Source: Nitrospina sp.
GTDB lineage: Bacteria; Nitrospinota; Nitrospinia; Nitrospinales; JACRGP01
NCBI GenBank assembly: GCA_024648695.1
Contig: JACAVV010000009.1
Location: 104,843 to 168,842, forward strand
DNA length: 64,000 bases
Reading direction: 5' to 3'
Shown: piece after piece, positions 44,503-63,858 of the stretch
Numbering within the stretch: the first letter of the stretch is position 1
How the letters are laid out: every line of letters starts with the position of its first letter
Notes under the pieces: generated by a model
Databases searched by the model: none
Seen by the model: the letters and a program-made list of their open reading frames with translations, nothing else
What the model was told of the DNA's origin: nothing
Position numbers and translations under genes: made by a program

Positions 44503-45144
44503 ATGTCTGAAAAACAACCCGAAGAAGCAGAAAACACTATATTCGAGCGTGATAAAACCGCCAAAGGACCCGAAGTCCAGGCTCCCGATCCTTCAAAAAT
44601 AAAAGTACCGTTAAAAAAACCGCGAAAAGTCTTTGTACCGAAGAAGGTGAAGTACAAATCGGACAAACCTATGGAGTATCGGGTCCGGCATATTCGCGTA
44701 TCGTCTACGGAAGCCGCTCAATTGTTCCGACAAAGCATTCTCGATTTTCAAAAGGAATTGGCAGATCAGCCTACCGACGATCCGGATAAAGAATTTGAAG
44801 ACCGCACCAAGGTGGAAAATTTTTTCGCTCGCGTCGCCAAAAAATACAGCACCTGTCCGAGCAAAGGACTGGGTGGCGAGTTAGGATGGATCTCCAAAAA
44901 CATGGAAACCCAGGATGACCGAATCGATCAACAATTGATCGACGCCGTAATGGAAACAGAGAAATTTGTCATTCCTGAGCCGGTGAAAACCACACTGGGC
45001 GTGCACATTATTTTGAATTGCGAAAGCCGTATTGACAAGAGCGCTGAGAAAAAATCACAGGAACCCGCGATGGACCCGCGCTACGAAGCCATGATGGCCC
45101 GCCCGGATGCCCAGGCACCGACACGCAAAGACATCCCGACCTGA
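44503..45144 (+). CDS. PpiC-type (parvulin) peptidyl-prolyl isomerase
   Basis: A 213-residue protein with a rotamase domain of the parvulin family in residues about 60-175: VRHIRVS at the start, CPSKGLGGELGWIS in the middle and TTLGVHIILNCE at the end. The N-terminal 55 residues are lysine- and proline-rich, and the tail is polar; there is no signal peptide, so it is predicted cytoplasmic, which is less common than the periplasmic PpiC/SurA kind. It is convergent with the giant-protein gene, with a gap of only two bases. A role in folding the neighbouring giant proteins would be tempting but is not supported, since it seems not to be exported. Confidence 0.82.
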   Translation: MSEKQPEEAENTIFERDKTAKGPEVQAPDPSKIKVPLKKPRKVFVPKKVKYKSDKPMEYRVRHIRVSSTEAAQLFRQSILDFQKELADQPTDDPDKEFEDRTKVENFFARVAKKYSTCPSKGLGGELGWISKNMETQDDRIDQQLIDAVMETEKFVIPEPVKTTLGVHIILNCESRIDKSAEKKSQEPAMDPRYEAMMARPDAQAPTRKDIPT

Positions 45145-45146
45145 GC

Positions 45147-45629
45147 CTAATTCAAACCGCTGAAATTGGGTGTGTGAAGGGCTTGGGAGTCCTGATTGTC
45201 GCCGATGAACTCCATGGCGAATCCGGTGGAGGTGTCCTGGACGACTACGGCTCCCCAAAACTGGAGCTGGGTGATGTCCGGATAGCCGCGCCCCTTACTG
45301 TCTCCGTTACCTAGCAAATGGTTGGGATCGGATGCGATGGGTGAAAATAACAACTGTCCGTGCCTGCTGGATTCAGGATCGGTGATGACAAACTTACTGT
45401 CTTCCAATCCAAAGGGATTGATGAAGGGATGGTTGCTGTGTACCACAAAAACTTTTTGGGTTTCTCCGGAATTGACGGTGAAGGCCAATGCACTGTTCAC
45501 CAAAGTTCCCGAACTGGTCACCGCTTGCGCCCTGACACCGACCCTGGAGCTTAAATCCTGCAGGGAGGGATGGGACACGCCTATGAAGGTATAGGTAGCG
45601 CCGTCAGCCTGCCAATAGGGCGACACGAC
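45147..45629 (-). other. Shared 160-residue C-terminal domain, copy in the 2497-residue protein
   Basis: Begins at VVSPYWQAD and ends in FSGLN just before the stop. It aligns without gaps over 160 residues with the C-termini of the two neighbouring giant proteins; with the 2090-residue protein I count by eye about 97 identities of 160. The block WGAVVVQ...TSTGFAMEFIGD is best preserved. I know no family for it. Confidence 0.9.
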
Positions 45630-48600
45630 AACCTCACCGGGTTCGAGGGGAAGTGGGGTCAATACGCCAGTGCTGTCCAACAGGGTGTAGGTGTGTTCTG
45701 TGTTGGTGCCAAGTGTTGCCTGAAATGGATTCGACAAGGTCACTACAAATGTTTCATCGCTTTCTGGGAACCCGTCATCGATTACGGTGATCGTTATGTC
45801 CTGGGTCGTGGTGGAAGCAGGAAACGTTAACGTTCCAGCGACCAATAAGTAGTCGGTACCTCCAGTTGCGCTCCCACCAGTCACCGCATAATCAACGGTT
45901 ACGATGGAGGAGAAACTGTTGGATAAGGAAACAGGAATTGTTACTTCGGTTTCAGATTCCGATCCGTTCGAACTGGAACTGTCAAATCCCACAGACGGAT
46001 CGCCGTCGTCGTCGATAATGGTGAAGGTATGAACGGTGGTCGATGCCAGGTTTCCATTGGATAAGGTGAGGATCACCGTTTCGTCACTTTCATCAAGGGT
46101 ATCGTCTATAAGAGTAACGGTAATATTTTGTGTGGTGGTACCCGGATCAAAGGTCAGGGTGCCAGCGCTTAATGTGAAATCGGTTCCGCCCGAGGTGGCG
46201 GTTCCGCCTGTCACGGCGTAGTCCACCGTAACCGTATCCGAGGCTGAAGAACTGCTTAAGGTTATGGGAATGATGGCTTCTGCAAGCGATTCCAATCCAC
46301 TTGAACTGCTAAGATCAAATCCCACCAAAGGTTCCGATTCATTATCGGCGATCGTGTAGGTATGCACGGTGTTGGTTCCCAAACTCACATCGACGGGAGA
46401 CGACAAGGTGATTTCGATGGTTTCATCGCCTTCATGCAGATTGTCGTCAACCACGGTGATGAGAATGGACTTCGTTTTGGTTCCTGCTGAGAAGGTCAAA
46501 GTTCCTTCGGTAATCGTGTAGTCGGTTCCACCACTTGCGGCGCTACCACCCGTCACGGCATAATCCACCGAACTGGTTCCATTGGCCTGGGTCAGGGATA
46601 CGGAAAGATTCACTGCCGTGCTGGATTCATCCCCCGTACTAGAGGTCGAATCAAAAGCCAGGATCGCCGAGGGATTGGTATAAAATTCCGATCCGCTCAC
46701 TCCACTAAAGTCCAAAGTACTGGTAGACCCTTCTAAAAAGTCGTCATCAGCGCCCAAATCCAGGGCGGTGTTGACCACCAGGCCACCGTTTAACGCTGTC
46801 ACGTTCAACCCGGTGGAACCTGCGTCCATAACTCCGCCGCTTTCAGAGCTAATACTTACTGCGGTATCGGAAGAGCTGGTGGTGGTCACGCCGGCAAAGG
46901 TAATCGATTCATCGGCGCTCAAAGTAACCGTGGAATCGCCAGCGTCGAAGACCGTTCCATCCGCCATAATGATAGCTCCGCCGGTACCCGCATCAGAGTT
47001 TTTATCAGAATCCGCCTCCACTCGAATAGCGCCGGTTCCGGTCATACCGCCATTTGCGGTAAATTGAATATCATTATCCGATTCCAGAGTAATTGTAGAA
47101 CCCGTGACCGCATTATTTATATTTAGTGTAGAGGTGTTGCATTGCAGATCAACCACAATACTGCCGCCGGTTACCGTTTCCAGAGAAATATCGCCACAAC
47201 CTGCCTTGGTCTTTCCTGTACCCGAAAGTAACTTAACGGAGACATTGCCTGTACCCGTAACCAGACTGGTGTCCGCATTCATGGCTATTTCGGCGTTGCC
47301 GGAATCCCGATCACTATCGACCACACCTTCTGCCAGGTTTTCGTTGGCAATGATGCTGAGCGAGGCGTTATCCGTGTTGATGTTCGCATTGATCAATACA
47401 CTCCGTCCTGCCTGCAGGGTCAAACCGCCGCCATCGCCTTCGGTATTGTCTACCATGATGGGATCGGAAACGGTGATATCATTATTCGCCTGAATGGTCA
47501 CATCGGTTGGCGTCGATAACAAACTGGCCAGGTCTTCATTAGACAGAGTGATATCGCCGCCTTGCTGAACTTCAAAAACTGCGTTTGCCACCGGTTCCGA
47601 ATCGGGACCGAACACATACACCGCGCCACAATCATTGGTACAGGTAAGCCCTACCCCGTTATCCTGAATCGCGCCCACCGCCAGGCGCGTACCATCCAAA
47701 GAAACCGACTGACCGAAACTTGCAAAATCATCCAGGAAAATATTGAGGTTGCCATTATCCAGATAACCGTCACCGATGATCTTGTCGAGAGTCCCTCCAG
47801 AAAAGGAGGTGTCGGTGAAGGAATATAGATGGACCGCACCACAACCGATGCCACAATTGCCGTTAGAACCGTCGTCTCCCGAAACCCCAATGGCCAAACG
47901 CATATCCTCCAGAGATACGGAACGACCCAAACCATCGTTATCATCCAGAGTCACGTCGATATTTTTTCCGGCAATAAAATTTCCGCCGATGATTCCTTCC
48001 TGATTGCCGCTGGCAAACAGGCTGTCACTAAAGGTGTACATATAAACCGCGCCGCACCCACTACAAGTGTTTCCAGACCCATCGTCTCCCGTCGCCCCTA
48101 TGACCAGGCTGTTTCCATCCAGAGAAACCGAAACACCAAAGTTATCACTATTATCCAGAGTCAGGTTGATGTCTTTAGATCCCGTATAACCGTCGCCAAT
48201 GATACCTTCCAAGTTTGCACCGGAAAAGGTGTTATCGCTGAAACTATACAGATACACTGCACCGCAATCGGTGTCACAGGTTCCGGAAGACCCGTCATCG
48301 TTCACCGCACCAATGACCAAACGCGTATCGTCCAGCGAAACGGAACGGCCAAAACCGTCGGAATCACTCAGCGACACATCAACATTTTTATCACCCGTAT
48401 AACCATCCCCGATAATTCCTTCCAAAGTGCCACCAGAAAAAACACCATCGCTGAAACTATACAGATACACCGCGCCACAATCGGTCGTGCAGGTTCCCTC
48501 GTCGCCATCGTCATTTACAGCTCCCACCGCCAGCCGGGTTTCATCGAGAGAAAGCGACTGACCAAACCGGTCGATATCGTCCAGAGTCACGTCAATATTT

Positions 48601-51600
48601 TTTCCACCGGTATAACCGTCGCCAATGATACTTTCCAAAATCCCGCCGGAAAGAGAGGAATCATTGAAGCTGTATAGATAAACCGCCCCGCAAGCGGAGG
48701 AACAATTTCCGGCAAGCCCGTCGTCATTAGAAGCACCTACGGCTAGGCGGGTGTCGTCCAGGGCAACGGCGTTTCCGAAGTTATCACCATTCTCAAGAGC
48801 TACGCTCAATCCTGAACTTTTGAAAGACGTGTCCTGGATATCAATGTTTTTTGCTTCCTCATACCCTACGCCGACGGTGGCTTCAAGGGTCGCATCGGAA
48901 AAAGAAGCGTCGCTGAAACTAAACAATTTTACGGCCCCACAAGATGTGCAAGCGTTTACAAAACCTTCATCGGAAGGAGCCCCCACAGCCAGGCGGTTTT
49001 CCCGCAGTGAAACGGATCTACCAAAAGAATCGGACGTATCCAGTGCCAGATCCAGATTGTTTCCTCCCGTGTATCCATCGCCGATCGTGGCTTCCAGATT
49101 TCCGCCACTGAACGATTCGTCACTGAAGCTGTAAAGATAAACCGCTCCACATTGCATGCAGGAGTCTGCGGATCCGTCGTCATTATTGGCTCCAATGGCC
49201 AATTGCATGCTATCCAGCGAAACGGCGGACCCGAAATTATCATTGGTATCCAGAGTCACATCGATATTTTTACTTCCTATATATCCGTCCCCGATGATGC
49301 CTTCCAAGTTCCCTCCGGTGAAAACCATATCACTGAATTCGAATAAATACACAGCCCCGCATTCCGAGTTACAACTCCCACCGGAACCATCATCCCCCGG
49401 GGCCCCGACCGCCAGCCGGGTTTCATCCAGAGTAACGGATAAACCGAATGCATCACCATCATCTAATGCAACGTCGATATTCTTTCCCGCCAGAAAGTCG
49501 GATCCAATGATACTTTCCAAGCTTCCATCGCTGAAGTTAGAGTCGCTAAATGTATACAAATACACAGCGCCACAATTGCTACAAGTATCGTTTGCGCCAT
49601 CATCGCCATTGGATCCAATCGCCAAACGGTTTTCATCCAGTGAAAGGGTGCGCCCGAAATTATCCGAATTATCCAGGGTCAAGTCGATATTCTTGCCGCC
49701 TGAATAACCCTCTCCGATGATGGCTTCCAGAACGCCTCCGTTAAACGTGCTGTCACTAAAACTGTACAATCGAACCACGCCACAATCCGCGCAACCATCG
49801 GTGTCGCCATCATCGTCACCCGTACCCACCGCCAAACGAGTACCATTCAAAGACACCGATTGACCCAAATGATCGGAACCATCCAGAACCACATGAAAAT
49901 TCTTTCCACCGGTGTATCCCTTTCCGATAATGGCTTCCAACCGTCCCCCGTTGAAATCGCTGTCGCTAAAACTATACAAATACACCGCACCACATTCCGA
50001 GCAATTACCACTGAACCCATTATCCAGAGGCACGCCCACGGCCAAACGTAAATCGTCAAGAGAGACCGCTTCACCAAAGTTTGACGGGTTGGAGGACATA
50101 TTGATATTTTTTCCACCGGTGTATCCCTTACCCACAATTCCCTCCAACAATCCACCGGTAAAGGTTATATCTTTAAAGCTGAATAAATACACACCCCCGC
50201 AGTCGGTACAAGCACTGGAAGATCCATCGTCCCCGCGAATTCCAAGGGCCAATCGCGTTCCATCCAGAGACACCGCAATTCCAAGGCGATCGCTATTATC
50301 CAGTTCCACGTTAATGTTTTTGTCGTCCAGATAACCGTCGCCGATAATACCTTCCAGCGTTCCTCCGGAAAACGCATCACCGCTAAAGGAATACAAATAC
50401 AAGGCCCCGCAATTGGTACATGTGCCGGTAAACCCACCGTCTCCGGTAGCGCCTATGGCTAAAGCCGATTCTTCAATTGCAAGCGATCCCCCGAAAAAGT
50501 CTTCACTATCCAGAGCCACGTCGCGGTTTTTTCCACCCATGTAACCGTTTCCTATAATGGCTTCCAAACTGCCGGATTCGAAAGAATTATTGCTGAAAAC
50601 ATACAAATAAACGGAGCCGCAATTGAAACAGGTGTCGCCGGACCCATCATCTCCCGTTGCTCCAATTGCTAACAGAGTCCCCTTCAAAGCTGTGGAGACA
50701 CCCAGGGAATCACTATTTTCCAAACTGAGATCTATGTTATTTCCGCCCGTATAACCGCCGCCAATAGTTACCAGTAAAGTTCCACCGGAAAAGGAAGTGT
50801 CGGTGAAGCTATACAAGTACAGCGCACCGCATCCCGCACATGTATCACCGGAGCCGTCATCACCTGGTGCACCGATGGCTAAATTCATTCCATCCAGGGA
50901 GATTGCCTGGCCGAAAAAATCCTCACTGGTTAGAGTCAGGTCGACGTCTTTGCCCGCCAAATATCCATCGCCGATGGTGGCTTCCAGGCTGGCTCCATTA
51001 AATGTTGTGTCACTGAAGGTATATAAATACACCGCTCCACAGTCTGTGCAGTTATCGTCAAAACCGTCATCCTTGTGAGCTCCAATGGCCAATCGCGTTC
51101 CGTCCAATACCACCGATTGCCCAAACCCATCCTCATTATCCAGAGCGATATCGACGTTTTTGCCTCCCGTATAACCTTCTCCCAAAACAGCTTCCAGCAC
51201 GCCTCCGGAAAACGAGGTGTCCTCGAAGCTGAATAAATATACAGAGCCGCAGGAGATACAGGTATCTGAGAAACCATCTTCCTGGTCTGCGCCTACAGCC
51301 AATCGAGTCCCATCCAGGGACACCGACTCCCCAAACCGGTCGTTGTTCAGGAGATCGACAGTGGTTCCATTCACACCATAATCGCTTCCTATAATGAACG
51401 ACATTTGATTGATATCCGTAAGTTTCGCTATGGTGGCATTATGCGGATCTAATAACAGTTTGCCTTTACGATCCGCTATTCCCGTTTCCGCTTTCGCGGC
51501 ATACGTCAAATTTCCTGCCGAGGAAGTCTCGATAAATCCGCCGTTCCCGGATTGACCACCGGGCAGGGCCTGCAAGGTTCCAAGCAAGGTACTTTTTTTG

Positions 51601-52640
51601 TCGGACCATAATATGACCTGCCCTCCATTACCCATTGGGCCTGTAGCATTCGACCTGATGGCCGTGCCATCTGTGGACACCAGGGTGTTGGCATTGGGAA
51701 GTTCATCGACACCGGAATTCTTTCCTCCCTGAAATTCGCCGCCAATACGCACACGGCCGCCCCCTGATGTCCCGGAACTGTCAATGGTTCCGGACAACAG
51801 TTTTATCGTTTTTGAGGTGACATCAATGTGTCCGCCTTTGCCCTGTTCGCCCACCGCCAGATATTTTCCGGAAGTGACCAACTGCTGTCCCACGATATGG
51901 CGGATGCTCCCACCCAAAGTTCCGGAAACATCCAAAACGGCGTTACTGCTTTCCAGGGATTTTTTCCGGGTCGACAAATCAATCTTTCCTCCCGAACCTG
52001 AAGCTCCAATAGCCAATACCGGTTCAGCAATTGACAAATTACCTGCCGACACTTTTATAAATCCACCTTTTGAACCACTGGCATCCACCTTTCCACCAAG
52101 GCTAAGACCCTGTGTAGCGTACATCTTTATGGTTCCGCCCGGACCCTCCGGATTGAACGCAGACACCTCACCTCTGTTAATATTGATGGTCTCTCCATTC
52201 AGATTGATTTGACCACCGGGAGTTATAAGCCTGCCCTTGATTGTGATTTTAGAGGCATCAATATTTATTCCATGACCCTGGATCTCAGTTTGAGCATTTA
52301 ATAAAAATGCAGATTCGGATTGAATATCTATCGTTCCATTGGAAACTAACGAAGAAAGCCATCCAGAGTCGCCTTTCACATCCCAATCGATGAGAGTTTC
52401 GAAGTCATTTGATAAAGCATGAACTTCGATACGATCTACATTAGACCGTTTGAGTTGTGAGGCAGAAATGTTTATTGGGGAATCCAATTGATCCAGGATC
52501 AAAGTCGAACCGTTTTGGTATAATTGAAATCCTGGAACAGAATGGGAAGTGTAGGATTGCGCTCCGAAGGGGAAAACAATGTGGACGGCCAAAGCCAAAA
52601 TAAACAAAAATACACAACGAAAAATACAGGAGGGTGCCAT
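45147..52640 (-). CDS. Giant secreted protein with FHA-like beta-helix, 18 Cys-pair FG-GAP repeats, Calx-beta domains and shared C-terminal domain
   Basis: A protein of 2497 residues with a signal peptide (CVFLFILALAVHIVFPFG near the start). Domains in order: an FHA-like beta-helix with repeated G-G motifs (about 80-410, ending GGFIETSS...LLDPHNA); 18 repeats of about 70 residues with the FG-GAP form FGxSVSLDGTRLAVGA...DDG...CGAVYLYSFSD (about 415-1680), nearly all with a CxxCG or CxxxCG pair; a second FHA-like segment (about 1690-1985); three Calx-beta domains (about 1990-2330); and the 160-residue C-terminal domain shared with the two upstream neighbours. ATG 52640 has AAAGGGA before it. 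It probably lies at the cell surface and could bind calcium or serve adhesion. No secretion partner gene (TpsB type) lies in the window. Confidence 0.85.
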   Translation of the reverse strand: MAPSCIFRCVFLFILALAVHIVFPFGAQSYTSHSVPGFQLYQNGSTLILDQLDSPINISASQLKRSNVDRIEVHALSNDFETLIDWDVKGDSGWLSSLVSNGTIDIQSESAFLLNAQTEIQGHGINIDASKITIKGRLITPGGQINLNGETININRGEVSAFNPEGPGGTIKMYATQGLSLGGKVDASGSKGGFIKVSAGNLSIAEPVLAIGASGSGGKIDLSTRKKSLESSNAVLDVSGTLGGSIRHIVGQQLVTSGKYLAVGEQGKGGHIDVTSKTIKLLSGTIDSSGTSGGGRVRIGGEFQGGKNSGVDELPNANTLVSTDGTAIRSNATGPMGNGGQVILWSDKKSTLLGTLQALPGGQSGNGGFIETSSAGNLTYAAKAETGIADRKGKLLLDPHNATIAKLTDINQMSFIIGSDYGVNGTTVDLLNNDRFGESVSLDGTRLAVGADQEDGFSDTCISCGSVYLFSFEDTSFSGGVLEAVLGEGYTGGKNVDIALDNEDGFGQSVVLDGTRLAIGAHKDDGFDDNCTDCGAVYLYTFSDTTFNGASLEATIGDGYLAGKDVDLTLTSEDFFGQAISLDGMNLAIGAPGDDGSGDTCAGCGALYLYSFTDTSFSGGTLLVTIGGGYTGGNNIDLSLENSDSLGVSTALKGTLLAIGATGDDGSGDTCFNCGSVYLYVFSNNSFESGSLEAIIGNGYMGGKNRDVALDSEDFFGGSLAIEESALAIGATGDGGFTGTCTNCGALYLYSFSGDAFSGGTLEGIIGDGYLDDKNINVELDNSDRLGIAVSLDGTRLALGIRGDDGSSSACTDCGGVYLFSFKDITFTGGLLEGIVGKGYTGGKNINMSSNPSNFGEAVSLDDLRLAVGVPLDNGFSGNCSECGAVYLYSFSDSDFNGGRLEAIIGKGYTGGKNFHVVLDGSDHLGQSVSLNGTRLAVGTGDDDGDTDGCADCGVVRLYSFSDSTFNGGVLEAIIGEGYSGGKNIDLTLDNSDNFGRTLSLDENRLAIGSNGDDGANDTCSNCGAVYLYTFSDSNFSDGSLESIIGSDFLAGKNIDVALDDGDAFGLSVTLDETRLAVGAPGDDGSGGSCNSECGAVYLFEFSDMVFTGGNLEGIIGDGYIGSKNIDVTLDTNDNFGSAVSLDSMQLAIGANNDDGSADSCMQCGAVYLYSFSDESFSGGNLEATIGDGYTGGNNLDLALDTSDSFGRSVSLRENRLAVGAPSDEGFVNACTSCGAVKLFSFSDASFSDATLEATVGVGYEEAKNIDIQDTSFKSSGLSVALENGDNFGNAVALDDTRLAVGASNDDGLAGNCSSACGAVYLYSFNDSSLSGGILESIIGDGYTGGKNIDVTLDDIDRFGQSLSLDETRLAVGAVNDDGDEGTCTTDCGAVYLYSFSDGVFSGGTLEGIIGDGYTGDKNVDVSLSDSDGFGRSVSLDDTRLVIGAVNDDGSSGTCDTDCGAVYLYSFSDNTFSGANLEGIIGDGYTGSKDINLTLDNSDNFGVSVSLDGNSLVIGATGDDGSGNTCSGCGAVYMYTFSDSLFASGNQEGIIGGNFIAGKNIDVTLDDNDGLGRSVSLEDMRLAIGVSGDDGSNGNCGIGCGAVHLYSFTDTSFSGGTLDKIIGDGYLDNGNLNIFLDDFASFGQSVSLDGTRLAVGAIQDNGVGLTCTNDCGAVYVFGPDSEPVANAVFEVQQGGDITLSNEDLASLLSTPTDVTIQANNDITVSDPIMVDNTEGDGGGLTLQAGRSVLINANINTDNASLSIIANENLAEGVVDSDRDSGNAEIAMNADTSLVTGTGNVSVKLLSGTGKTKAGCGDISLETVTGGSIVVDLQCNTSTLNINNAVTGSTITLESDNDIQFTANGGMTGTGAIRVEADSDKNSDAGTGGAIIMADGTVFDAGDSTVTLSADESITFAGVTTTSSSDTAVSISSESGGVMDAGSTGLNVTALNGGLVVNTALDLGADDDFLEGSTSTLDFSGVSGSEFYTNPSAILAFDSTSSTGDESSTAVNLSVSLTQANGTSSVDYAVTGGSAASGGTDYTITEGTLTFSAGTKTKSILITVVDDNLHEGDETIEITLSSPVDVSLGTNTVHTYTIADNESEPLVGFDLSSSSGLESLAEAIIPITLSSSSASDTVTVDYAVTGGTATSGGTDFTLSAGTLTFDPGTTTQNITVTLIDDTLDESDETVILTLSNGNLASTTVHTFTIIDDDGDPSVGFDSSSSNGSESETEVTIPVSLSNSFSSIVTVDYAVTGGSATGGTDYLLVAGTLTFPASTTTQDITITVIDDGFPESDETFVVTLSNPFQATLGTNTEHTYTLLDSTGVLTPLPLEPGEVVVSPYWQADGATYTFIGVSHPSLQDLSSRVGVRAQAVTSSGTLVNSALAFTVNSGETQKVFVVHSNHPFINPFGLEDSKFVITDPESSRHGQLLFSPIASDPNHLLGNGDSKGRGYPDITQLQFWGAVVVQDTSTGFAMEFIGDNQDSQALHTPNFSGLN
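47606..51395 (-). repeat. Eighteen tandem FG-GAP-like repeats (coding), each with a cysteine pair
   Basis: Counting the Gly-x-Gly-Tyr unit start (forms such as GDGYTGGKN) gives 18 units of about 70 codons. Each unit has FG, SLDGTRLAVGA, DDG, a close pair of cysteines and GAVYLYSF. At DNA level the units are similar but diverged, so they are old. Confidence 0.85.
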
Positions 52641-52684
52641 TTTTTTCCCTTTGCAATTTTCTTTATTTATGAATTGAAAGATCA

Positions 52685-52714
52685 CAATTGTATGCAAAGC
52701 GCATACTTTAATTG
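52685..52714 (-). other. Stem-loop in the leader of the 2497-residue gene
   Basis: GTATGC and GCATAC pair around a five-base loop, extended by CAATT/AATTG with a small bulge, about 45-75 bases upstream of the ATG. No T-run follows, so it is not a terminator; it may be an mRNA leader element. Confidence 0.4.
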
Positions 52715-52816
52715 TAATAGCATATTCCCTGGAAACAATTTATAAATTATTCATTTTCTATTTTTTAATTAAAGCTCAGTTTTCTACCGAAGCTCAGGTA
52801 GGCTATTAAATGGGGA

Positions 52817-53299
52817 CTAATTTACACCACTAAACAAAGGCATATTCAAGGCGCGGGAATCCTGATTGTCACCGATGAACTCCATGGCAAATCCGGTGGA
52901 GGTTGCCTGCACGACAACAGCGCCCCAATAGTTCAGCAGGGTTATATCTGCATAACCCCTTCCCGAAGTTTCCGGATTTCCGGTCAACTTCAGTGCATTG
53001 GTATAAACAGATGAAAACTCTAATTGCCCGTGTTCGGAAGCCGTGGATCCGGCCAATACAAACAGGCTGTCGGGTAAATTTTCTGGTGTGATAAACGAAT
53101 GGTTGCTTTGCACAATAAACACTTTGCGGGTTTCATTGGGCTGAATGGTGAACTGCAATACATTATCCAGAAGGGTGCCGGAATTCAACAGGGCTTCAAC
53201 CTGAACTCCAATCCGAGAGCTCATTTGAGAAAGAGAAGGATGGGAAACGCTAATAAAAGTATAGGTCTCTGAATCTGCCTGCCAATAGGGGGATATCAC
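52817..53299 (-). other. Shared 160-residue C-terminal domain, copy in the 2090-residue protein
   Basis: From VISPYWQAD to the terminal FSGVN, exactly 160 residues, gapless against the other two copies. The FAMEFIGDNQDSRAL stretch at the end and GRGYADIT before it are near identical to the neighbours. Confidence 0.9.
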
Positions 53300-56200
53300 T
53301 TTTAACTTATCCACAACTCCTGCCCGGTCATCATCCTGAATGGTATAAGTATGCAGGGTATGGATGCCTAAAGTGGCATTGTCGGGATTGGACAAGCTGA
53401 TTTCTATGGTTTCATCGGGCTCAATTTTTCCATCGTCGGTTATGCTGACATTGATATTCTTTGCCGTTTCTCCAGGGTTAAATGTAAGACTGGCGTCCGC
53501 AAGTGCAAAATCGGTAGCCGTATTTGTAGCGCTTCCACCACTTACGGAATAGTCCACGGTAATTGTAGAAGCTGATGTATTTGAAAGGACTACGGGTATT
53601 TGCACGGACACATCGGATTCCGTCCCCGATGAACTTTCGGATTGGAATCCCACTGTGGGAATTCCATCGTTGTCGGAAATAGTATAAGTATGAACCGTCG
53701 TCGCTCCCAGTGAAGCGTTAGTGGGACTGGACAGGGTCACTTCGATGGTTTCGTCAGATTCATCCAAAGCATCCTCCACGATTCCTATGGCAATATTCTT
53801 TGTTGTGTCTGAAGGATTAAAGGTCAGGGTGCCATTAGCCAGAGTAAAATCCGTTCCCCCACCCGTTGCACTTCCGCCCGTGACGGCGTAGCTGACTGAA
53901 ATGGTGTTAAGGGACGCGCTATTCAAGGACACCGGTATATTCACGGGAGTGTTCGATTCGTCTCCGCTGGAACTGGATGCCTCAAAAGCCACCGATGTTG
54001 CAGCTTCCCCATCATTAATGGTAAAGGTATGAACGGTTAGGCCTCCCAGCGTCGCGTTATGCGGATTGGAAAGAGTCACTTCAACCGTTTCATCCGATTC
54101 TTCCAGGACGTCATTGGTAACGGAAAACGAAATATTTTGAGTTGTAATTCCCGGGTTGAAAGTAAGTGTGCCATCAGTCAGAGTAAAGTCGGTTCCGCTT
54201 CCAGTAGCCGTTCCCCCACTGACCGAATAATCCACGGTGGTGGTGCCGTTCACTTGTGACAGGGAAACTGGAATATTGACATTGGTGGCCGATTCGGCAC
54301 CATTTGAAGTCGCCGTATCAAAACCAACAATGGTCCCTGCATTACTGAAAAAATCGGATCGCGTGACAGCGCTAAAATCAAGAGACGATACATTTCCTTC
54401 GATAAAGTTGCTTCCACTGCCAATGTCTGTTGCTGTACTCACATTCAGGCCGCCACTGGTAGCATCCACATTGGTCTCTGAGGTTCCCGCATCAACCACT
54501 CCCGCGCTTTTGGATGCGATCGAAACGACATTGCCAGCACTTCCTGTGGTCATAATTTGGGCAAGTGTTACTGCTTCATCGGCGCTTAAACTGATGCTTC
54601 CGGAACCCGCATTCAGGAGAGTTCCATTTGCCATGCTTAATGCGCCCCCGAATCCTGCATCCGACTCCGAATCGGAATCTGCGTTGATGGTAATGGAACC
54701 AGTAGTGGTCACATCTCCGTCAACGGTGAATATGATATCGTCATCGGCATCCAGTTGCACAGAGATCGCCGTCACGGTCTGATTGATGTTGAGACTGGAA
54801 CTGTTGCATGCAACATCCACCGTCACCGCCCCCGACTGAATGGTCTGCAGATTCACGTTGCCGCAATCAGTGAAAGCCTGGTTGCCGCCTTCACGCATTT
54901 CGATATTCAGGCTTCCCGTTCCTGTATTGATGGAAGTTCCATTATTCATGGTGATTTCCGCGGCTCCGATTTCACGGAATACAGAATCGGCCCCATTGCC
55001 TGGAAGTTCGTTGGCGATTAGGGTGAGGCTTCCATCGTCGGTGGTGATATTCGCTGATAGATGAATACTTCTCCCGGCCTGCAATACCAGGCCTCCCCCT
55101 GCCCCTGAAGGATTGTTCACGGTCAAATTACTGGAAAGCGTGATGTCGTTATTCGCCTGCAAAGTAACGTTGGTCGGGCTGGACAAAGTTTGCTCAAGCA
55201 GGACCGATGACAAACTCGCGTCTTTACCGGGAAAGGAGGCAAAGGAGGAGGCCTGACTGATGGAATCCGGGTCAGGCAACAAAGGTGAAAACACGTCATC
55301 AGAAAATCTGTATAAATAGACCGCGCCTTCTCGCGACCCCGAATTATTGAACCGGTCATCTTGTTCGGCCCCTACAGCCAAACGGTTTCCATCCAGGGAA
55401 ACCGATTTGCCGAAAAAATCACTGTTGTCCAGCGGTTGGTTTACATTTTTTTCGCCTTCATAACCCGACCCGACCACAGCGGCGAGGGTCCCACCGGAAA
55501 ACACTGTATCGGAGAAGGTGTAAAGGTACACAGCGCCAGAATTATCAATATCTCCGGGATTATCCAACCCATCATCCTGCCTGGCGCCTACCGCTAAACG
55601 TATGCCATCCAGAGAAACCGATTGCCCAAAAAAATCGCCGCTATCCAGGGTCTGGTCGAAATTTTTTCCGCCTGAATAACCCGAGCCCAAAGTGGCTTGT
55701 AAACTTCCATCGGAAAAACTGGTATCGGTAAATGTATAAAGATAGACGGCTCCGCTTGTCGACAGAGCATTTCCGGATCCTGAATCTCCTGTACTCCCTA
55801 CAGCCAATCGGGTGCCGTCCAAAGAAACCGACTGGCCAAAACCATCACTTGCGTCCAGAGACTGATTGATATTGTTACCACCGGTATAATCTGATCCAAT
55901 AGTTCCCTCCAGACTTCCGCCAGAAAATGAAGAGTCAGAGAAAGTAAATAAATAAACCGCGCCACTGCTTGCCACCGCATTCCCCGAACCAGAATCTCCG
56001 GTACTGCCAACGGCTAATCGTGTTCCATCCAAAGAAACGGAACTTCCAAAAAAATCGTTGGAATCCAATGACTGGTCAACATCATTTGCTCCCGCGTAAT
56101 CAAGCCCGATGGTGCTTGCCAGGCTCGCATTCGAAAAAACGGTGTCGGTGAAGGTGTATAAATACACGGCACCCGTATTGAATCCGCCATTCCCGGATCC

Positions 56201-59089
56201 CCTGTCGGACGGGGCTCCCACCGCAAGACGCATCCCGTCCAGCGAGACGGCGGATCCAAAATTATCTAAATTATCCAAGGCCTGATTCAGGTTTTTCCCA
56301 CCGGCATAATCCGCACCAATGATGGCTTCCAGACTTCCACCGGTAAATTCAGAGTCTGAAAAGCTATACAAATAGACCGCCCCTCCATCGGACGTTGAAT
56401 TGCCGGACCCATCATCATCGGAAACTCCTACCGCAAGCCGATTGCCGTCCAGAGAAACGGAAGAACCAAACAGGTCGCTACTTCCCAATGAAACCGACAG
56501 GTTTTTTCCTCCGGAATATCCCGAGCCAAGGGTGGCCTCAAGCCTGCCGTCCGAAAAAACCTCATCGGAAAACAGGTATAAATAAACAGCTCCAGAATCA
56601 TCGGCCGTTCCCGGGCTTCCCGAAGCATCGTCCCCAGTCGCACCTACTGCCAGGCGGTTGCCGTCCAGAGAAACTGCGGTGCCAAATGTGTCCGACTGCT
56701 CTAGGGTCTGATCGAAGTTCTTACCACTGGTGTACCCGGATCCAATGATCGCCTCCACACTGCCGCTGGAAAAGTTACTGTCTGAAAAATTGAATAAAAA
56801 AACCTGGCCGGCATCCATGAGAATCCCAGCCTGCCCGTCATCACGACTCGCACCCACTGCTAAACGGGTCCCATCCAGGGAAACGGAGATTCCAAACCTA
56901 TCGATCGCTTCCAGACCGGGATCGATGTTCTTGCCTCCTGTGTAACCTGATCCGATTCGTCCCTCCAGAGTGCCTCCGGAAAAAGCGCTATCTGAAAAAG
57001 ATAGCAGGTAAACCGCTCCTTCACGGTCTCCAGAATTTCCGGAAGCGTCATCACCCACGGCGCCTGCGACCACCCGGTTGCCTTCCATGGAAACAGATGT
57101 GCCCAATTCGTCTGAAGGATCCAACGTCAGATTTTGATTGTTTCCACTGGAATAACCCGATCCGAAAATCGCTTCCAGGTGACCTCCCGAAAAACTGCTG
57201 TCTGTAAAACTGAAAAAATACAGCGCCCCTGCATCATTGCTTGAACCCGGATTGCCCGAGCCATCGTCGCCGGGTGCACCCACTGCCAACCGGTTACCAT
57301 TCAGAGAAACCGAAGTTCCAAAATGATCAGAGGCACCCAGGGCCTGATCAATATCTTTACTTCCGGAATAACCCGAACCGATGATCGCTTCCAGGTTGCC
57401 TCCGGTAAAATTGCTGTCCGTAAAACTGTACAGATAAACAGCCCCTTCCCCATCGCCGGAATTTCCTGAAGCATCGTCCAGACCGGCTCCCACTGCCAGA
57501 CGCTGACCGTCCAGGGAGACCGACGAACCAAAAGAGTCGTTGGCATCCAGCGATTGATCTATATTTTTATTCCCGGAATATCCGGAACCGATAGTACCTT
57601 CCAGACTGCCGCCGGAAAAATTATTACCCGTGAAGCTAAATAAATACACAGAGCCCGACTGGTTAACTGCCCCCGGATCGCCGAAGCCATCATCACCAAT
57701 CGCACCCACCGCCATGCGGTTACCGTCCAGAGAAATCGCCGACCCAAACTGATCCGAATCTCCCAATGCCTGACTCCCAATATTCAAGCCACCGTAGCCA
57801 GAGCCCAGGATGATTGCCTGCTGGTTCACCTGAGTCGGGTCTTCGATGATAATATTTTTAGGATCCATGAGAAACTCTCCCGCCCGTTCGCCCCGACCGG
57901 TGAGAGTGGTTCCCGCGAAGACCAACCGGTCGGCAGAAGAGGTCTCAATAAAACCGCCTTTCCCGGATATTATTCCGGGTCGTGCCGACAATTTTGCGAG
58001 AACCGTGCTTTTCTTTTCCGACCAAACCACAAGGTGTCCCCCTGGACCCGAAGGACCCAGCGTGTCTGCGCTCAAACGGGTGCCATCGTTCAATGCAACG
58101 GTTTGGGCATTGGGCAATTCATCATTAACCAGACCTTTGCCGCCTTGCAATTCGCCGCCCAGACGAATGGTACCACCACCACTTTGTCCATCCGCATTTA
58201 CTTCGGCCGAAAGGAATTTCATTATCGGGGCCGTGACATCAACCGTTCCGCCTTCCCGTTCGAAACCGACGGCCAAATATTTTCCTGAGCTTAAGATCTG
58301 CTGTGCACCGATATAACGAATCCGGCCGCCGGTTTTTCCGGATACGTCCAAACGGGCAGATGAGTTTTCCCACGAATTCTTTTTTACATTAATTTCAATC
58401 TGCCCGCCAGAGTCCGATTCACCTTGCGCCAATAAAGAACCTGCAATGTTCAAACCGCCCGCCACCACCTCAATCCGTCCCCCTTCTGATCCGCCGGCAA
58501 AGACTTTCCCTCCGAGACTGACCCAATGATGCCCCTGAACTTTTACCGTTCCTCCTTGACCTCCACTTCGGGACGCGTCCACTATCCCCTCATCCAGAAC
58601 CACCGTATCGGCATTCAATTCCAACTGGCCTCCTGAAGCTTTAAGATGACCTTCAAGGTCAATTCGCAGAGAAGAAACCTTAAGATTTCCTGCTTCAAGG
58701 CTTGCGTCTTTAACAATGTGAATAGGGGAAGCGCTCATGATTTCCAAATCAGCAGAGCTTTGTATGAGGCCCTTAAATTCTATCTGGGAGGGGTGATAAA
58801 ACTCGATACGAGTGGAGGCATTCGGGCTGTCAGGCAAAATGGTTAAAGAGCCTGTAAAGGGAGAATCGAGAGAATCTAAAGAAAGGACCAACTCTTGCGA
58901 TTCCTGCTCCAAAATCCAACTGGATTGATTGATCGATTGAAGGGTGCCGGTACCCGACTCAATTTCGAATTTGAAGTCCATTGCGTGAACAGGCAAAACC
59001 AGGAGCAAGAAAAAGGTCCACTGGATCCAAATACCAATAATCAGGGACCTGCACTTAATATAGTTTTTTGGTTTGACTTGAACGAACAT
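52817..59089 (-). CDS. Giant secreted protein with FHA-like beta-helix, 12 FG-GAP repeats, Calx-beta domains and shared C-terminal domain
   Basis: A 2090-residue paralogue of the gene downstream, with the same order: a signal peptide (WTFFLLLVLPVHA, about 20-38), an FHA-like beta-helix (about 60-410, with GGFIETSSA and FLMDPKNI), 12 FG-GAP-like repeats of about 70 residues (about 425-1268), a second FHA-like part (about 1290-1580), three Calx-beta domains (about 1586-1920) and the shared 160-residue end. The repeats have no cysteines at the place where the paralogue has its pair. I choose ATG 59089 with AAGGGG upstream; a TTG at 59104 would read through that site. A near-consensus promoter precedes it. 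Predicted secreted and surface located; function unknown. Confidence 0.85.
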   Translation of the reverse strand: MFVQVKPKNYIKCRSLIIGIWIQWTFFLLLVLPVHAMDFKFEIESGTGTLQSINQSSWILEQESQELVLSLDSLDSPFTGSLTILPDSPNASTRIEFYHPSQIEFKGLIQSSADLEIMSASPIHIVKDASLEAGNLKVSSLRIDLEGHLKASGGQLELNADTVVLDEGIVDASRSGGQGGTVKVQGHHWVSLGGKVFAGGSEGGRIEVVAGGLNIAGSLLAQGESDSGGQIEINVKKNSWENSSARLDVSGKTGGRIRYIGAQQILSSGKYLAVGFEREGGTVDVTAPIMKFLSAEVNADGQSGGGTIRLGGELQGGKGLVNDELPNAQTVALNDGTRLSADTLGPSGPGGHLVVWSEKKSTVLAKLSARPGIISGKGGFIETSSADRLVFAGTTLTGRGERAGEFLMDPKNIIIEDPTQVNQQAIILGSGYGGLNIGSQALGDSDQFGSAISLDGNRMAVGAIGDDGFGDPGAVNQSGSVYLFSFTGNNFSGGSLEGTIGSGYSGNKNIDQSLDANDSFGSSVSLDGQRLAVGAGLDDASGNSGDGEGAVYLYSFTDSNFTGGNLEAIIGSGYSGSKDIDQALGASDHFGTSVSLNGNRLAVGAPGDDGSGNPGSSNDAGALYFFSFTDSSFSGGHLEAIFGSGYSSGNNQNLTLDPSDELGTSVSMEGNRVVAGAVGDDASGNSGDREGAVYLLSFSDSAFSGGTLEGRIGSGYTGGKNIDPGLEAIDRFGISVSLDGTRLAVGASRDDGQAGILMDAGQVFLFNFSDSNFSSGSVEAIIGSGYTSGKNFDQTLEQSDTFGTAVSLDGNRLAVGATGDDASGSPGTADDSGAVYLYLFSDEVFSDGRLEATLGSGYSGGKNLSVSLGSSDLFGSSVSLDGNRLAVGVSDDDGSGNSTSDGGAVYLYSFSDSEFTGGSLEAIIGADYAGGKNLNQALDNLDNFGSAVSLDGMRLAVGAPSDRGSGNGGFNTGAVYLYTFTDTVFSNASLASTIGLDYAGANDVDQSLDSNDFFGSSVSLDGTRLAVGSTGDSGSGNAVASSGAVYLFTFSDSSFSGGSLEGTIGSDYTGGNNINQSLDASDGFGQSVSLDGTRLAVGSTGDSGSGNALSTSGAVYLYTFTDTSFSDGSLQATLGSGYSGGKNFDQTLDSGDFFGQSVSLDGIRLAVGARQDDGLDNPGDIDNSGAVYLYTFSDTVFSGGTLAAVVGSGYEGEKNVNQPLDNSDFFGKSVSLDGNRLAVGAEQDDRFNNSGSREGAVYLYRFSDDVFSPLLPDPDSISQASSFASFPGKDASLSSVLLEQTLSSPTNVTLQANNDITLSSNLTVNNPSGAGGGLVLQAGRSIHLSANITTDDGSLTLIANELPGNGADSVFREIGAAEITMNNGTSINTGTGSLNIEMREGGNQAFTDCGNVNLQTIQSGAVTVDVACNSSSLNINQTVTAISVQLDADDDIIFTVDGDVTTTGSITINADSDSESDAGFGGALSMANGTLLNAGSGSISLSADEAVTLAQIMTTGSAGNVVSIASKSAGVVDAGTSETNVDATSGGLNVSTATDIGSGSNFIEGNVSSLDFSAVTRSDFFSNAGTIVGFDTATSNGAESATNVNIPVSLSQVNGTTTVDYSVSGGTATGSGTDFTLTDGTLTFNPGITTQNISFSVTNDVLEESDETVEVTLSNPHNATLGGLTVHTFTINDGEAATSVAFEASSSSGDESNTPVNIPVSLNSASLNTISVSYAVTGGSATGGGTDFTLANGTLTFNPSDTTKNIAIGIVEDALDESDETIEVTLSSPTNASLGATTVHTYTISDNDGIPTVGFQSESSSGTESDVSVQIPVVLSNTSASTITVDYSVSGGSATNTATDFALADASLTFNPGETAKNINVSITDDGKIEPDETIEISLSNPDNATLGIHTLHTYTIQDDDRAGVVDKLKVISPYWQADSETYTFISVSHPSLSQMSSRIGVQVEALLNSGTLLDNVLQFTIQPNETRKVFIVQSNHSFITPENLPDSLFVLAGSTASEHGQLEFSSVYTNALKLTGNPETSGRGYADITLLNYWGAVVVQATSTGFAMEFIGDNQDSRALNMPLFSGVN
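55284..57815 (-). repeat. Twelve tandem FG-GAP-like repeats (coding), without cysteines
   Basis: Units beginning GSGYSGGKN-type and containing FGSSVSLDGNRLAVGA and GAVYLYSF, about 70 codons each; I count 12. None holds a cysteine, unlike the 18-unit array of the paralogue. Confidence 0.85.
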
Positions 59090-59173
59090 GCGACCCCTTG
59101 TCAAAACCTATAGAATCTCTAAAAAAAACATTAATTCAGGTTTTAATCTGGTGGGATTTTCGGGAACGCAAAG

Positions 59174-59202
59174 ATTATAATAAAATTTCTGCAAACCGTC
59201 AA
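59174..59202 (-). promoter_or_regulatory. Near-consensus sigma70-type promoter of the 2090-residue gene
   Basis: On the minus strand TTGACG (59202-59197), a 17-base spacer and TATAAT (59179-59174). Eleven of twelve bases match consensus. The predicted transcript would start near 59167, leaving a leader of about 78 bases before the ATG at 59089. Confidence 0.8.
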
Positions 59203-59256
59203 CGGATTAAAAAATTTAAATCCATTGGCAAACCGAATTTCAATAAAAACTTACTA

Positions 59257-59739
59257 TCAATTCACGCCACTGGCGGTAGTGCGACCCGATGCACGGGAAT
59301 CCTTCATATCGCCAATGAATTCCATTGCAAATCCTGTGGAATTAGCTCGAACCACCACTGCCCCCCAGAATCCCAACATAGTGATATCGGCATAGCCGCG
59401 GCCTTCGGCACCCGGATCCCCCATGAGGTTCAATGGATTACTGGCTATCGGGGTGAATTTCAATTGCCCACGTTCACTGGAATCTGGTCCCGCGAACTGG
59501 AATAGACTGGCAGGCAGGTTTTCCTGATTGATAAAGGGGTTATTCGTTTGGACAATAAAAATCTTTTGGGTGACTCCCGAATCGATGGTGAATTCCAGGG
59601 GAGCATCCACCAATTCGTTTGATTGCGTAAGAGCCTGTAACCGCACTCCAATTTGAGAATTCATTGCTGAGAGAGAGGGATGAGACACCCCAATAAAGGT
59701 ATACACCCCGGAATCCGCCTGCCAATAGGGAGAAACCAC
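59257..59739 (-). other. Shared 160-residue C-terminal domain, copy in the 1533-residue protein
   Basis: From VVSPYWQAD to the terminal ASGVN, 160 residues with no gap against the other copies; more diverged than the other two are from each other, but PYWQAD, TFIGVSHPSL and STGFAMEFIGD are kept. Confidence 0.88.
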
Positions 59740-62700
59740 CATCAAGCTGGACGGACCCTCAGTAGGAAATATTTCAAATCCTTGCGGTCGAATGCTTACA
59801 TCAATCGATTTGCTGGCATTGAATTCGCCGGTTTGATCTTCAACGGATAGAGTCAGTGAACAACGTGCTGATTTTTTACCTTTATTTTTGGGGGCGGTCC
59901 AAAACGTTTCAATGGATTTCCGGTTTTTAAACTGTCCATGATCTTCCCCTCCGAAGCATTCAGATTGCCAGGTTATATTCAATTCCATTCCCGCCGAATG
60001 AATGGTCCTGGCCAATAGTTCGACAGATTCACCCGATTCGATATCGAGGTTTTCTGCCATTAGCAATTCGAGGATCAATTTCTGCTCGGGCGTGAGCGGC
60101 TGAACTTCGACTTGAACCGAATCCATTTCGCTCAAACCGAATTCCCCGTCATCTACTATCACAGCGAGAGAACATACGGTCGGTTCGTCAATCTCCTGAG
60201 GAGCTGTCCAGAGAGGAGCCGGTGAAAGACTGTCATTGAATTGGCCGTGGACAATCTGGTCCGGACAAACCGATTCCCAAGTGTAATTCAATGGGTGATC
60301 CGAGCTATCTTTGGCTTTCACAGAAACTGACAACACTTCGCCAGCATTCATTTTGGCATTTTTAGGAAGGACATTTTGAATCTGCACCTTATGGCTTGAA
60401 TTCCCCCTATCCCTGCCTCCCCCCTTGGATTCCGAATCCTGGGGTAAGATAGTGAAAACCATTTTCGATTCCACGTTCAAGCTTTCCGGATCGGTTTCAA
60501 CCAGAATAGTCAAGGTACAATTTTGATTTTCCTCCGTAAAATTGGACGGAACATCCCAGTGAGTATTTTTCGAATCAATAGAAGCAAACTCTCCATTATC
60601 CAAAGATTCTCCACAATCCGATTCCCACAGATACTTCAATTTATTATTATGAGAATCATCCGCCTTCACCGAAACCAGAACCCTGTCTCCTGGCGCAACC
60701 TCCACATCGCCAGGCTTTAAAGAAGCAATTTCAAGAGTATGTTCGATTCCCGTCCGAACATCGAACTCCAGGGACCCCTGGGCGTTCAATTCGCCTGAGG
60801 AATCCTCAATATCTACCGTTAGGAGACATAACTGTTTTTCCGTTGTTAAATTTGGTGGCGTGTTCCAGGTGGTGCTCGCCATAGTGGGATCTGCAAACGA
60901 TCCATTTTCAGGCAAACCTTCGCAGTCCGAACTCCAGGAGTACAGCAGGTTATGTCCCAGAGTGTCCTCGGCAGTAACAGATACTGGAACTATATCCTCG
61001 GAAGCTAACGACGATTTGTTAGGGGTCAGTTTATGAATAATTAATTGATGCTCGGGAACCGGAACTGCCTCGACTATAATATCTATAATTTTTCTAGCTT
61101 TCGGACCCGGCAAACCATCATCCGCCGTAAGGGTAAGCCGGCAAGTGCGTTCTCTCTTTGCCGTATTTATAGGCGCTGTCCATTCGGTTTCAGTGGCATT
61201 CAGGTTTGAAAACTCACCCTCTCCAAAATTCGACGGACATATTGCCTTCCACAAAATATTCAAATCATGTCCTAAAAGTTCCTGGGCAACAGCAGTTAAT
61301 GGAACTACCTCTCCAGAAGCCACCTGGGTATTAGCAGTTTCTATAGGACTCAACAGGATATGATCATGAGTAGAAACCGGCGAAACAAACACATTTATCG
61401 ATCTGGTAGACACAGGGTCTGAGGTCTCGTTATCAATAGTCACCGTCAAGACGCAAAGCTGATCCTCACCGGATGTATGTTCAGGAGCCGACCAATGGGT
61501 TAATGGCAGTGAGGGGTGTTCAAACTCACCATCCTCCAGACCTCCTTCACATTCGGATTCCCACAGATAACTCAGTTCATGATCTCTGATACTTTCGGCA
61601 TCTACTGAAACCTCCAGTGTTCCTAAAGAATTCGCCCATACGAGCTCTTTCGGCAAAATTGAATTGATGATGATATCGTTGAATGAAAATAAAAAACCTG
61701 TATCCACAAAATGGTTTCCCTGTTCGTCCGTAAAATCGTGAACTCCCGGTGCGATAATTTCACTAAAACCATTGCCATTAAAATCCCCAGCCAAATCGAA
61801 AATACCCTGATGGAAAAACATAAAGGGCGAACTGATGTCCAAAAGATAATCCGCATCAGATTCGGATTTCAAAACCAGGGGCGACTCAAACTCCCGGCCA
61901 AAATACAAACTACCACGCGCCTGCTCTTTTTTACCCCAGACCAGAATATCGGGAAGATTATCACTATTAAAATCACCGGAAGAAAATGCTTTATATCCGA
62001 AACCTTCCAGGGACTCAGTTCCTTCAATTGTGAGACCCGCATCAAACGACCTCAAAAACAATGGCTCTTCGGCCTCCCTGCCCAGATACACAAAAGCACC
62101 TCCGGAGTCCACCAGACCTTCACCATCAATACCTTTAACCCCTAAAAGCAAATCATCTTTTCCATCCCCATTAAAATCACCGACAGGAACCATTACATCT
62201 CCCATAAAGTCGTTTCGGTGGTCTCCAAAAATAAAAATATCGGGCTCAATTGAAGATTGGGTTTCAGGATCGTCTGTCACTTCCCTGCCAAAATAAATAT
62301 GGACGCCCCCAGTGAACAGATCGGTTGCACTGGAAATAGAAGGGTGGCCTGTGACCACATCGGCAAATCCGTCGCCATTGATATCACCGGCTCCCCTGGC
62401 GGTTGAATCTGTAAACAAATATAATTTGGGAAGGGTAAAATTGACATCATCCGTAGCATCCAGGACCAGCGGCTCGTCCGGTTCACTTCCAAAATAGATC
62501 AACGCGTCCTGGAACGACCAGGCCAACACATCGTCAAACCCGTCGCCATTAAAATCCCCCAGAAAAGAAACAGGATTCAGGCTACGGGTTCCCTCTATCC
62601 TGATATCGAAATCCACCAAAGGATCAAAAACGGTTTTTTCAAAAGATTCTCGCCCGAACAAAATCAATAAAACATTTGGTTTGGCAACGGAACCAAGTAC

Positions 62701-63858
62701 GCCCCCTACAAGGATATCCGAGTATCCGTCGGCATTAAAATCACCAATTCTGGAAGCCGTCTGACAAAAATCGAATCCGGTGTCAGATTGAAAATAGAGA
62801 TCCGCTTCCCCATTATCCATTCCCGATTGCAATTGCAATGTTTGATTGAAGACTCTACCAAAAAACACAGAAAGCTCTGCCGAAACGCCATTTAGGGAAT
62901 CGTTTATGGTTGCGCACACCATGACATCCTCCAGACCATCCCCATTGACGTCCCCTAGAAAACCGACCCTCATGTCCTGAGTGAAAATGGTTTGGTCATC
63001 ATCATCCGTGTCGATAGTTTCCTGAGTGAACTCGATTTGAGAATTGAGTTCGGAGGTCAAGGTAGGATCCACCCAAAGAGGAAAATTCAAATCCTGCCAA
63101 TCCGTAAGGTTCAGGGTCAAACGATTGCGCTCTACTTCAAAACTCACACCCGTTTCATGGTTCACCTGATTGGCATCCAGATAATCGGGAGGAGGGATGT
63201 TGAGGAGGGTACGACGCATTCCATGTTCGGACAAAGGCCCTCTGTTGACTTTTCGGATATACTTCTGAACCCGATCGGCCATTCCCGGATCGGTTATTCG
63301 GTCCAACTCCCTTTTAGGATTGTAGGTACGAACCAGAGAAACACTACCATCGTTTCCGGGAGTCAAAGTAATTCCTTTGAAATACCAGGACAAAACCTGC
63401 CCATTTTGACTCAAGGCTTCCCGGAAGGGAACATAAATGTATTCTTTCAACGCTTTTCCGGTTTCGTTCCATCGATACACAATAGCGTCATTTTCGCTTT
63501 GATAAACGAGATAATTACCGGAGATTAGAGCTGTATAAGATTTTTTCGAGTTCAGATATTGCCAAATCGGGCCATGACTGGTTTCCAGTCGAATGGGAGA
63601 TTGTGCATTCAGGTGGAGGGGAAACTTGATTTTTCGAACCGGTCCCATGGAAACCTGCAATACAAAGCCATCCGAATCCAGGGTTTCAAATGGACCCGTA
63701 GTCGCAGGATTCCAATCGGGATCGAAAGCAAGAATATCTTTTAATTGCAGGGAAGATGAATCTGGTTCCTTAATCTGGTCGGCAAAAGAGAAGGTATTAA
63801 AAACTACACTTGCAAGAAAAAATAAGGAGGTAAATGTAAAAGTGGCTTTAACCCTCAT
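59257..63858 (-). CDS. Secreted protein with seven FG-GAP motifs, six Ig-like domains and shared C-terminal domain
   Basis: A 1533-residue secreted protein (signal peptide FTFTSLFFLASVVFNTFSFA). The first 285 residues are beta-rich with no named domain. Then come seven calcium-type FG-GAP motifs such as GDVNGDGLEDV and GDFNGDGFDDV (about 295-710), exactly the number for one seven-bladed integrin-like propeller. Six Ig-like domains of about 100 residues follow (about 755-1360); each has two cysteines, one in a W.S.C segment and one before LTV, and a WTAP-like motif between them. The end is the 160-residue domain shared with the two downstream genes. The ATG at 63858 has a GGGG upstream. Probable surface adhesin or matrix-binding protein; the role is inferred. 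Confidence 0.85.
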   Translation of the reverse strand: MRVKATFTFTSLFFLASVVFNTFSFADQIKEPDSSSLQLKDILAFDPDWNPATTGPFETLDSDGFVLQVSMGPVRKIKFPLHLNAQSPIRLETSHGPIWQYLNSKKSYTALISGNYLVYQSENDAIVYRWNETGKALKEYIYVPFREALSQNGQVLSWYFKGITLTPGNDGSVSLVRTYNPKRELDRITDPGMADRVQKYIRKVNRGPLSEHGMRRTLLNIPPPDYLDANQVNHETGVSFEVERNRLTLNLTDWQDLNFPLWVDPTLTSELNSQIEFTQETIDTDDDDQTIFTQDMRVGFLGDVNGDGLEDVMVCATINDSLNGVSAELSVFFGRVFNQTLQLQSGMDNGEADLYFQSDTGFDFCQTASRIGDFNADGYSDILVGGVLGSVAKPNVLLILFGRESFEKTVFDPLVDFDIRIEGTRSLNPVSFLGDFNGDGFDDVLAWSFQDALIYFGSEPDEPLVLDATDDVNFTLPKLYLFTDSTARGAGDINGDGFADVVTGHPSISSATDLFTGGVHIYFGREVTDDPETQSSIEPDIFIFGDHRNDFMGDVMVPVGDFNGDGKDDLLLGVKGIDGEGLVDSGGAFVYLGREAEEPLFLRSFDAGLTIEGTESLEGFGYKAFSSGDFNSDNLPDILVWGKKEQARGSLYFGREFESPLVLKSESDADYLLDISSPFMFFHQGIFDLAGDFNGNGFSEIIAPGVHDFTDEQGNHFVDTGFLFSFNDIIINSILPKELVWANSLGTLEVSVDAESIRDHELSYLWESECEGGLEDGEFEHPSLPLTHWSAPEHTSGEDQLCVLTVTIDNETSDPVSTRSINVFVSPVSTHDHILLSPIETANTQVASGEVVPLTAVAQELLGHDLNILWKAICPSNFGEGEFSNLNATETEWTAPINTAKRERTCRLTLTADDGLPGPKARKIIDIIVEAVPVPEHQLIIHKLTPNKSSLASEDIVPVSVTAEDTLGHNLLYSWSSDCEGLPENGSFADPTMASTTWNTPPNLTTEKQLCLLTVDIEDSSGELNAQGSLEFDVRTGIEHTLEIASLKPGDVEVAPGDRVLVSVKADDSHNNKLKYLWESDCGESLDNGEFASIDSKNTHWDVPSNFTEENQNCTLTILVETDPESLNVESKMVFTILPQDSESKGGGRDRGNSSHKVQIQNVLPKNAKMNAGEVLSVSVKAKDSSDHPLNYTWESVCPDQIVHGQFNDSLSPAPLWTAPQEIDEPTVCSLAVIVDDGEFGLSEMDSVQVEVQPLTPEQKLILELLMAENLDIESGESVELLARTIHSAGMELNITWQSECFGGEDHGQFKNRKSIETFWTAPKNKGKKSARCSLTLSVEDQTGEFNASKSIDVSIRPQGFEIFPTEGPSSLMVVSPYWQADSGVYTFIGVSHPSLSAMNSQIGVRLQALTQSNELVDAPLEFTIDSGVTQKIFIVQTNNPFINQENLPASLFQFAGPDSSERGQLKFTPIASNPLNLMGDPGAEGRGYADITMLGFWGAVVVRANSTGFAMEFIGDMKDSRASGRTTASGVN
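59780..61620 (-). repeat. Six tandem Ig-like domains (coding), each with two cysteines
   Basis: Six units of about 100 codons with a W-x-S-x-C strand, a G-x-F segment, W-(T/S/N/D)-(A/V/T)-P, and C-x-L-T-(V/L). The two cysteines per unit are placed as for an intradomain disulfide. Confidence 0.8.

Follow-up and report, generated by a model that had tools for sequence, protein, structure and literature searches.

About forty otherwise different exported proteins of a marine Nitrospina sp. share one C-terminal domain, and this shared end has the look of a new tag that would direct proteins to the surface of the cell or beyond it. The domain is best read as an undescribed family; the logic of a C-terminal tag is itself already known. 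Among known nitrite oxidizers of the marine water column, Nitrospinota are the most abundant (PMC10839748), and our literature search found nothing on how they place proteins outside the cell. This genome gives about 4% of its length to carriers of one domain (summed ORF length about 60,000 codons). A C-terminal tag with T9SS-like logic outside Bacteroidota, with a four-residue end, would make the question of extracellular placement testable.

The window is a 64,000-nt stretch of assembly GCA_024648695.1 (contig JACAVV010000009.1, positions 104,843-168,842, forward strand) and holds three minus-strand ORFs of 2497, 2090 and 1533 amino acids, counted from their ATGs. The first two cargo genes (gene 1, 45147-52640; gene 2, 52817-59089) have the same layout: a signal peptide, a beta-helix-like N-terminal part, FG-GAP_2 repeats, three Calx-beta domains (45678-46667 in gene 1 and 53330-54343 in gene 2, converted from genome coordinates) and the 160-residue C-terminal domain (45150-45629, ending in FSGLN, and 52820-53299, ending in FSGVN). 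Gene 3 (59257-63858) encodes a signal peptide, an FG-GAP propeller and weak PKD/Ig-like repeats before its own 160-residue copy (59260-59739, ending in ASGVN), which AlphaFold2 models as a nine-strand beta-sandwich; the last 16 residues (59260-59307) form a low-confidence, disordered tail with the conserved end. The original observation that three giant proteins end in one gapless 160-residue domain is confirmed. In a gapless 160-column alignment the domains of genes 2 and 3 are 61% and 59% identical to that of gene 1, mean column identity over the three copies is 78%, and the motifs named beforehand are present. The length of exactly 160 residues holds for the window copies, but across the family it varies through loops and tail. 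The signal peptides claimed for the three genes are predicted by a hydrophobicity and charge heuristic only. The run of carriers extends past the window edge (G000:C45:168905-181984 in the same genome) with a fourth gene of 2109 codons and a fifth that is apparently split by a frameshift into 737 and 1390 codons, which makes five consecutive carriers. On the other side, a convergent gene for a PpiC-type peptidyl-prolyl isomerase (window 44503-45144) ends 2 bases from cargo gene 1.

A profile built from the three window copies matches the 4.2 Mb genome 48 times. The domain was located in 44 ORFs, comprising 40 C-terminal fusions, two stand-alone copies, one N-terminal copy and one 3' fragment of a broken gene, and the remaining four matches are degenerate pieces. 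In the 40 fused ORFs, which range from 484 to 5370 codons, the domain lies at the extreme C-terminus, and no located carrier has two strong copies in one protein. The two stand-alone copies (208 and 212 codons) lie in tandem on contig C53. Several carrier genes are broken by a frameshift or a contig end. By a simple heuristic, nearly all carriers have a Sec-type signal peptide, including the largest ORFs; one carrier without an apparent signal derives from a broken gene, of which it is the back half, and the signal peptide is on the front half. The sole protein with an N-terminal domain (L134, G000:C34:178549-183075) has a signal peptide followed by the domain and then Calx-beta and RHS/YD repeats; the gene after it encodes an RHS-type protein without the domain. 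On the same contig, two small, apparently exported SGSGHISG-type repeat proteins adjoin a carrier gene (L133, G000:C34:164884-166515).

The cargo is diverse and includes Calx-beta, FG-GAP and RHS proteins, NHL propellers, S8 subtilases, M12B metalloproteases, GSDH (glucose/sorbosone dehydrogenase) and multicopper oxidase. Association with Calx-beta is tight: 14 of the 17 Calx-beta ORFs in this genome have the domain, and the other three are the front half of a broken carrier, an ORF cut by a contig end and one that truly lacks the domain. FG-GAP proteins are more loosely associated, and some of them have no domain. Fusion of an M12B protease to this C-terminus is found in several families of the order and therefore looks old. 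Some cargo cores resemble, below cut-off, families that elsewhere are tagged with PEP-CTERM or LPXTG. Many unrelated secreted proteins within one clade thus have the same C-terminus, as was anticipated for a sorting domain.

The domain lies outside known families, as originally suspected. It has no match in Pfam or NCBIfam (92 domain copies were compared with the NCBIfam sorting-domain models) or among PDB sequences, a Foldseek search of its model against PDB and viral models returned nothing below E 0.001, and a literature search found no paper on it. A beta-sandwich had been raised as a structural possibility, and AlphaFold2 with 92 sequences predicts one with nine strands and a mean pLDDT of 88, in which residues 1-140 are confident and are followed by a disordered tail. 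The resemblance of highest probability in the PDB is to the ASRT/TM1070 fold (PF07100, PDB 1nc7; probability 0.87-0.89, TM about 0.5 on the target); with E about 0.1, 6-7% identity and no PF07100 match in the genome, we claim no membership of that family.

The end of the disordered tail is fixed. G-[V/L/I/T/M]-N-COOH, summarized as [S/R]-G-[V/I/L]-N, terminates 39 of the 40 C-terminal fusions in this genome. The only conserved motif found upstream of the domain is VxSPYWQ itself. Among relatives, 29 of 30 copies of a stand-alone form described below (B) terminate in G-[I/V/L]-N, and the end is still conserved when 20-46 residues follow the last strand. Of all the evidence, this fixed free end, carried on an unstructured tether of varying length, points most strongly to a partner that recognizes it.

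The domain is present in 40 of 77 Nitrospinota genomes, most of which are MAGs, with 48 copies here, 9-11 in a sister genus and mostly 1-6 elsewhere; it is therefore not merely a product of local duplication. A scan of 84,980 species (one genome each) with two short peptide patterns, which distant relatives could escape, recovered the domain in Nitrospinota and on four short contigs (L050, L052, L092 and L102) in MAGs labelled Gammaproteobacteria, Alphaproteobacteria or Nitrospirae. These MAGs have at most two copies per genome and the contigs are probably misbinned Nitrospinota, so the scan gave no credible occurrence outside the phylum. The plasmids, phages and viral contigs searched do not contain the domain. 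At its conserved minimum the family consists of two stand-alone proteins encoded in tandem, A (first gene) and B (second gene), and this pair is the sole form in several genomes that have no fused cargo; the domain must therefore have a role without cargo. A tree of 138 copies separates a B clade from an A clade that contains nearly all first genes and all fused copies except one, and B is unfused in all but one case. An AlphaFold model of a B protein resembles that of the gene 3 domain, with a sandwich and a disordered tail, at lower confidence. Degenerate copies and lineage-specific expansion indicate turnover of the domain.

A gene that always co-occurs with the domain was also predicted. 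Stand-alone A and B, which are of the same family, come closest to this, but no machinery gene was found: our searches recovered no translocon, sortase or shuttle gene that co-occurs with the domain and no meaningful recurrent neighbours of cargo genes. At about ten loci in several families, the A/B pair is divergent from a type IV pilus-related cluster that encodes a PilS-type histidine kinase (read from sequence), PilC, cNMP-binding and zinc-ribbon proteins, two PilT-type ATPases, a RodZ-like protein and a TPR protein, and a gene for another TPR protein lies downstream. PilT is missing from three domain-bearing genomes that are at least 92% complete (G026, G032 and G061) and is present in many genomes without the domain, which rules out a type IV pilus or T2SS as an obligate partner. 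The genome also has an exosortase (L152, G000:C21:7085-10735) beside a VIT/VWA protein whose C-terminus is PEP-CTERM-like, and the two are a small, separate sorting pair. An exosortase is rejected as the partner of the domain because it has its own PEP-CTERM protein at the locus and is absent from several domain-bearing genomes. Two-partner secretion is likewise rejected: carriers have no cognate TpsB beside them, and the single TpsB match in the genome is followed by another exoprotein, which is large and of filamentous-haemagglutinin type. This TpsB match has a degenerate domain copy upstream of it (L121, G000:C33).

The closest precedent is the T9SS, in which cargo has a C-terminal Ig-like beta-sandwich with last residues that are needed for export (PMC4804311) and type B domains have dedicated partner proteins, shuttles or anchors (PMC9143113, PMC12618676). 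Carriers resemble T9SS cargo in combining a Sec signal, here heuristic, with a C-terminal beta-sandwich on varied cargo. Unlike T9SS C-terminal domains, the Nitrospinota domain is longer, occurs in a different phylum, has no sequence match to them and exists in stand-alone, paired copies. Por_Secre_tail (PF18962) is absent from the genome, and the domain matches no T9SS type A or type B sequence family. The SprA model TIGR04189 has no match in 11 genomes, and the controls were silent as well. PEP-CTERM, GlyGly-CTERM, MYXO-CTERM and LPXTG systems likewise tag many secreted proteins within a genome at the C-terminus, but the domain lacks their transmembrane helix, basic cluster, sortase motif and model matches. 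Carrier C-termini have no PEP motif, transmembrane helix or basic tail, nor do their tails combine an LPXTG-like motif with a membrane anchor. In line with the original statement, the T9SS sequence families, PEP-CTERM and LPXTG do not fit.

These observations suggest that the domain is a sorting or anchoring module, C-terminal in position and specific to the Nitrospinales lineage, a proposal to which we assign an even chance. The T9SS precedent of a C-terminal beta-sandwich with an export signal in its last residues counts in its favour. We infer that carriers are secreted, that they reside at the surface and that their tails are recognized. Cargo would leave the cytoplasm through Sec by means of its (heuristically assigned) N-terminal signal peptide. 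The roughly 140-residue beta-sandwich would then fold in the periplasm and present the flexible tail, the last residues of which, [S/R]-G-[V/I/L]-N-COOH, could be read by a shared envelope partner that moves the protein to the outer surface or holds it there. Stand-alone A and B may represent the constant core, as scaffold, receptor or first substrates, and A-type domains would have spread by copying to new cargo, above all in this genus. Against a sorting module stand the failure to find a co-occurring translocon, sortase or shuttle, the genomes with A and B only, the FG-GAP proteins without the domain, the N-terminal position in L134 and the chance that shared tails stem from recent duplication or gene conversion. 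A stronger version, in which a dedicated outer-membrane export or anchoring system of Nitrospinales has a receptor that reads the sandwich through [S/R]G[V/I/L]N-COOH, with A and B as its core, is tentative and on balance we doubt it. Since many unrelated secreted proteins share the C-terminus, the family is neither known nor a local duplicate and no machinery gene was found, the common step originally proposed is best explained as sorting or attachment, with an export system as a hypothesis only.

The genomes in which A and B are the only form fit a rather different role, in which A and B together form a coat or fibre outside the cell, cargo proteins are incorporated into it as A subunits with added decoration, and the domain is a polymerization module instead of an export signal. 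This role is possible, at perhaps one chance in four, and is consistent with a conserved minimum made of stand-alone A and B, two stable clades, small single-domain proteins with signal peptides and the position of the pair, at many loci, next to type IV pilus genes. A single copy at the extreme C-terminus is equally expected of a sorting signal, however, and the fold matches no known subunit. An adhesive or polysaccharide-binding module without a sorting role is less probable still. Foldseek finds a weak, non-significant resemblance of the sandwich to CBM and Ig-like domains, and one old carrier is an M12B protease that matches the biofilm-associated protease Mep72 over the catalytic part; but no fold match is significant, and binding modules are usually internal or in tandem, whereas this domain occurs as one copy at the terminus and its last residue is fixed.

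Turnover, as seen in degenerate copies and lineage-specific expansion, might also be expected if the domain were a folding cap, or a C-terminal cassette that spreads selfishly, and had no specific partner. A strictly conserved, disordered terminal peptide is unexpected for a cap, and we consider this explanation very improbable. The likelihood is slighter again that carriers are substrates of a known system (T9SS, exosortase, sortase, TPS or T4P/T2SS). Their Sec signal and C-terminal domain recall T9SS cargo, and the genome has an exosortase, one TpsB and T4P genes, but it has no Por_Secre_tail match, no NCBIfam sorting model recognizes the domain, the exosortase and TpsB each adjoin a protein of their own, and three domain-bearing genomes at least 92% complete lack the T4P PilT.

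The tails of the sorting module proposed here also vary between lineages. Tails of fused proteases resemble those of the stand-alone A proteins of their own lineage, which are PAAP-like in some genera and SGVN in others. Such lineage-shared tails could stem from descent, recent duplication, gene conversion or a common reader. In some genomes there are two A/B pairs, one with SGVN-type and one with PAAP-type ends (L067/L068 and L056/L079/L085), and proteases occur with either end.
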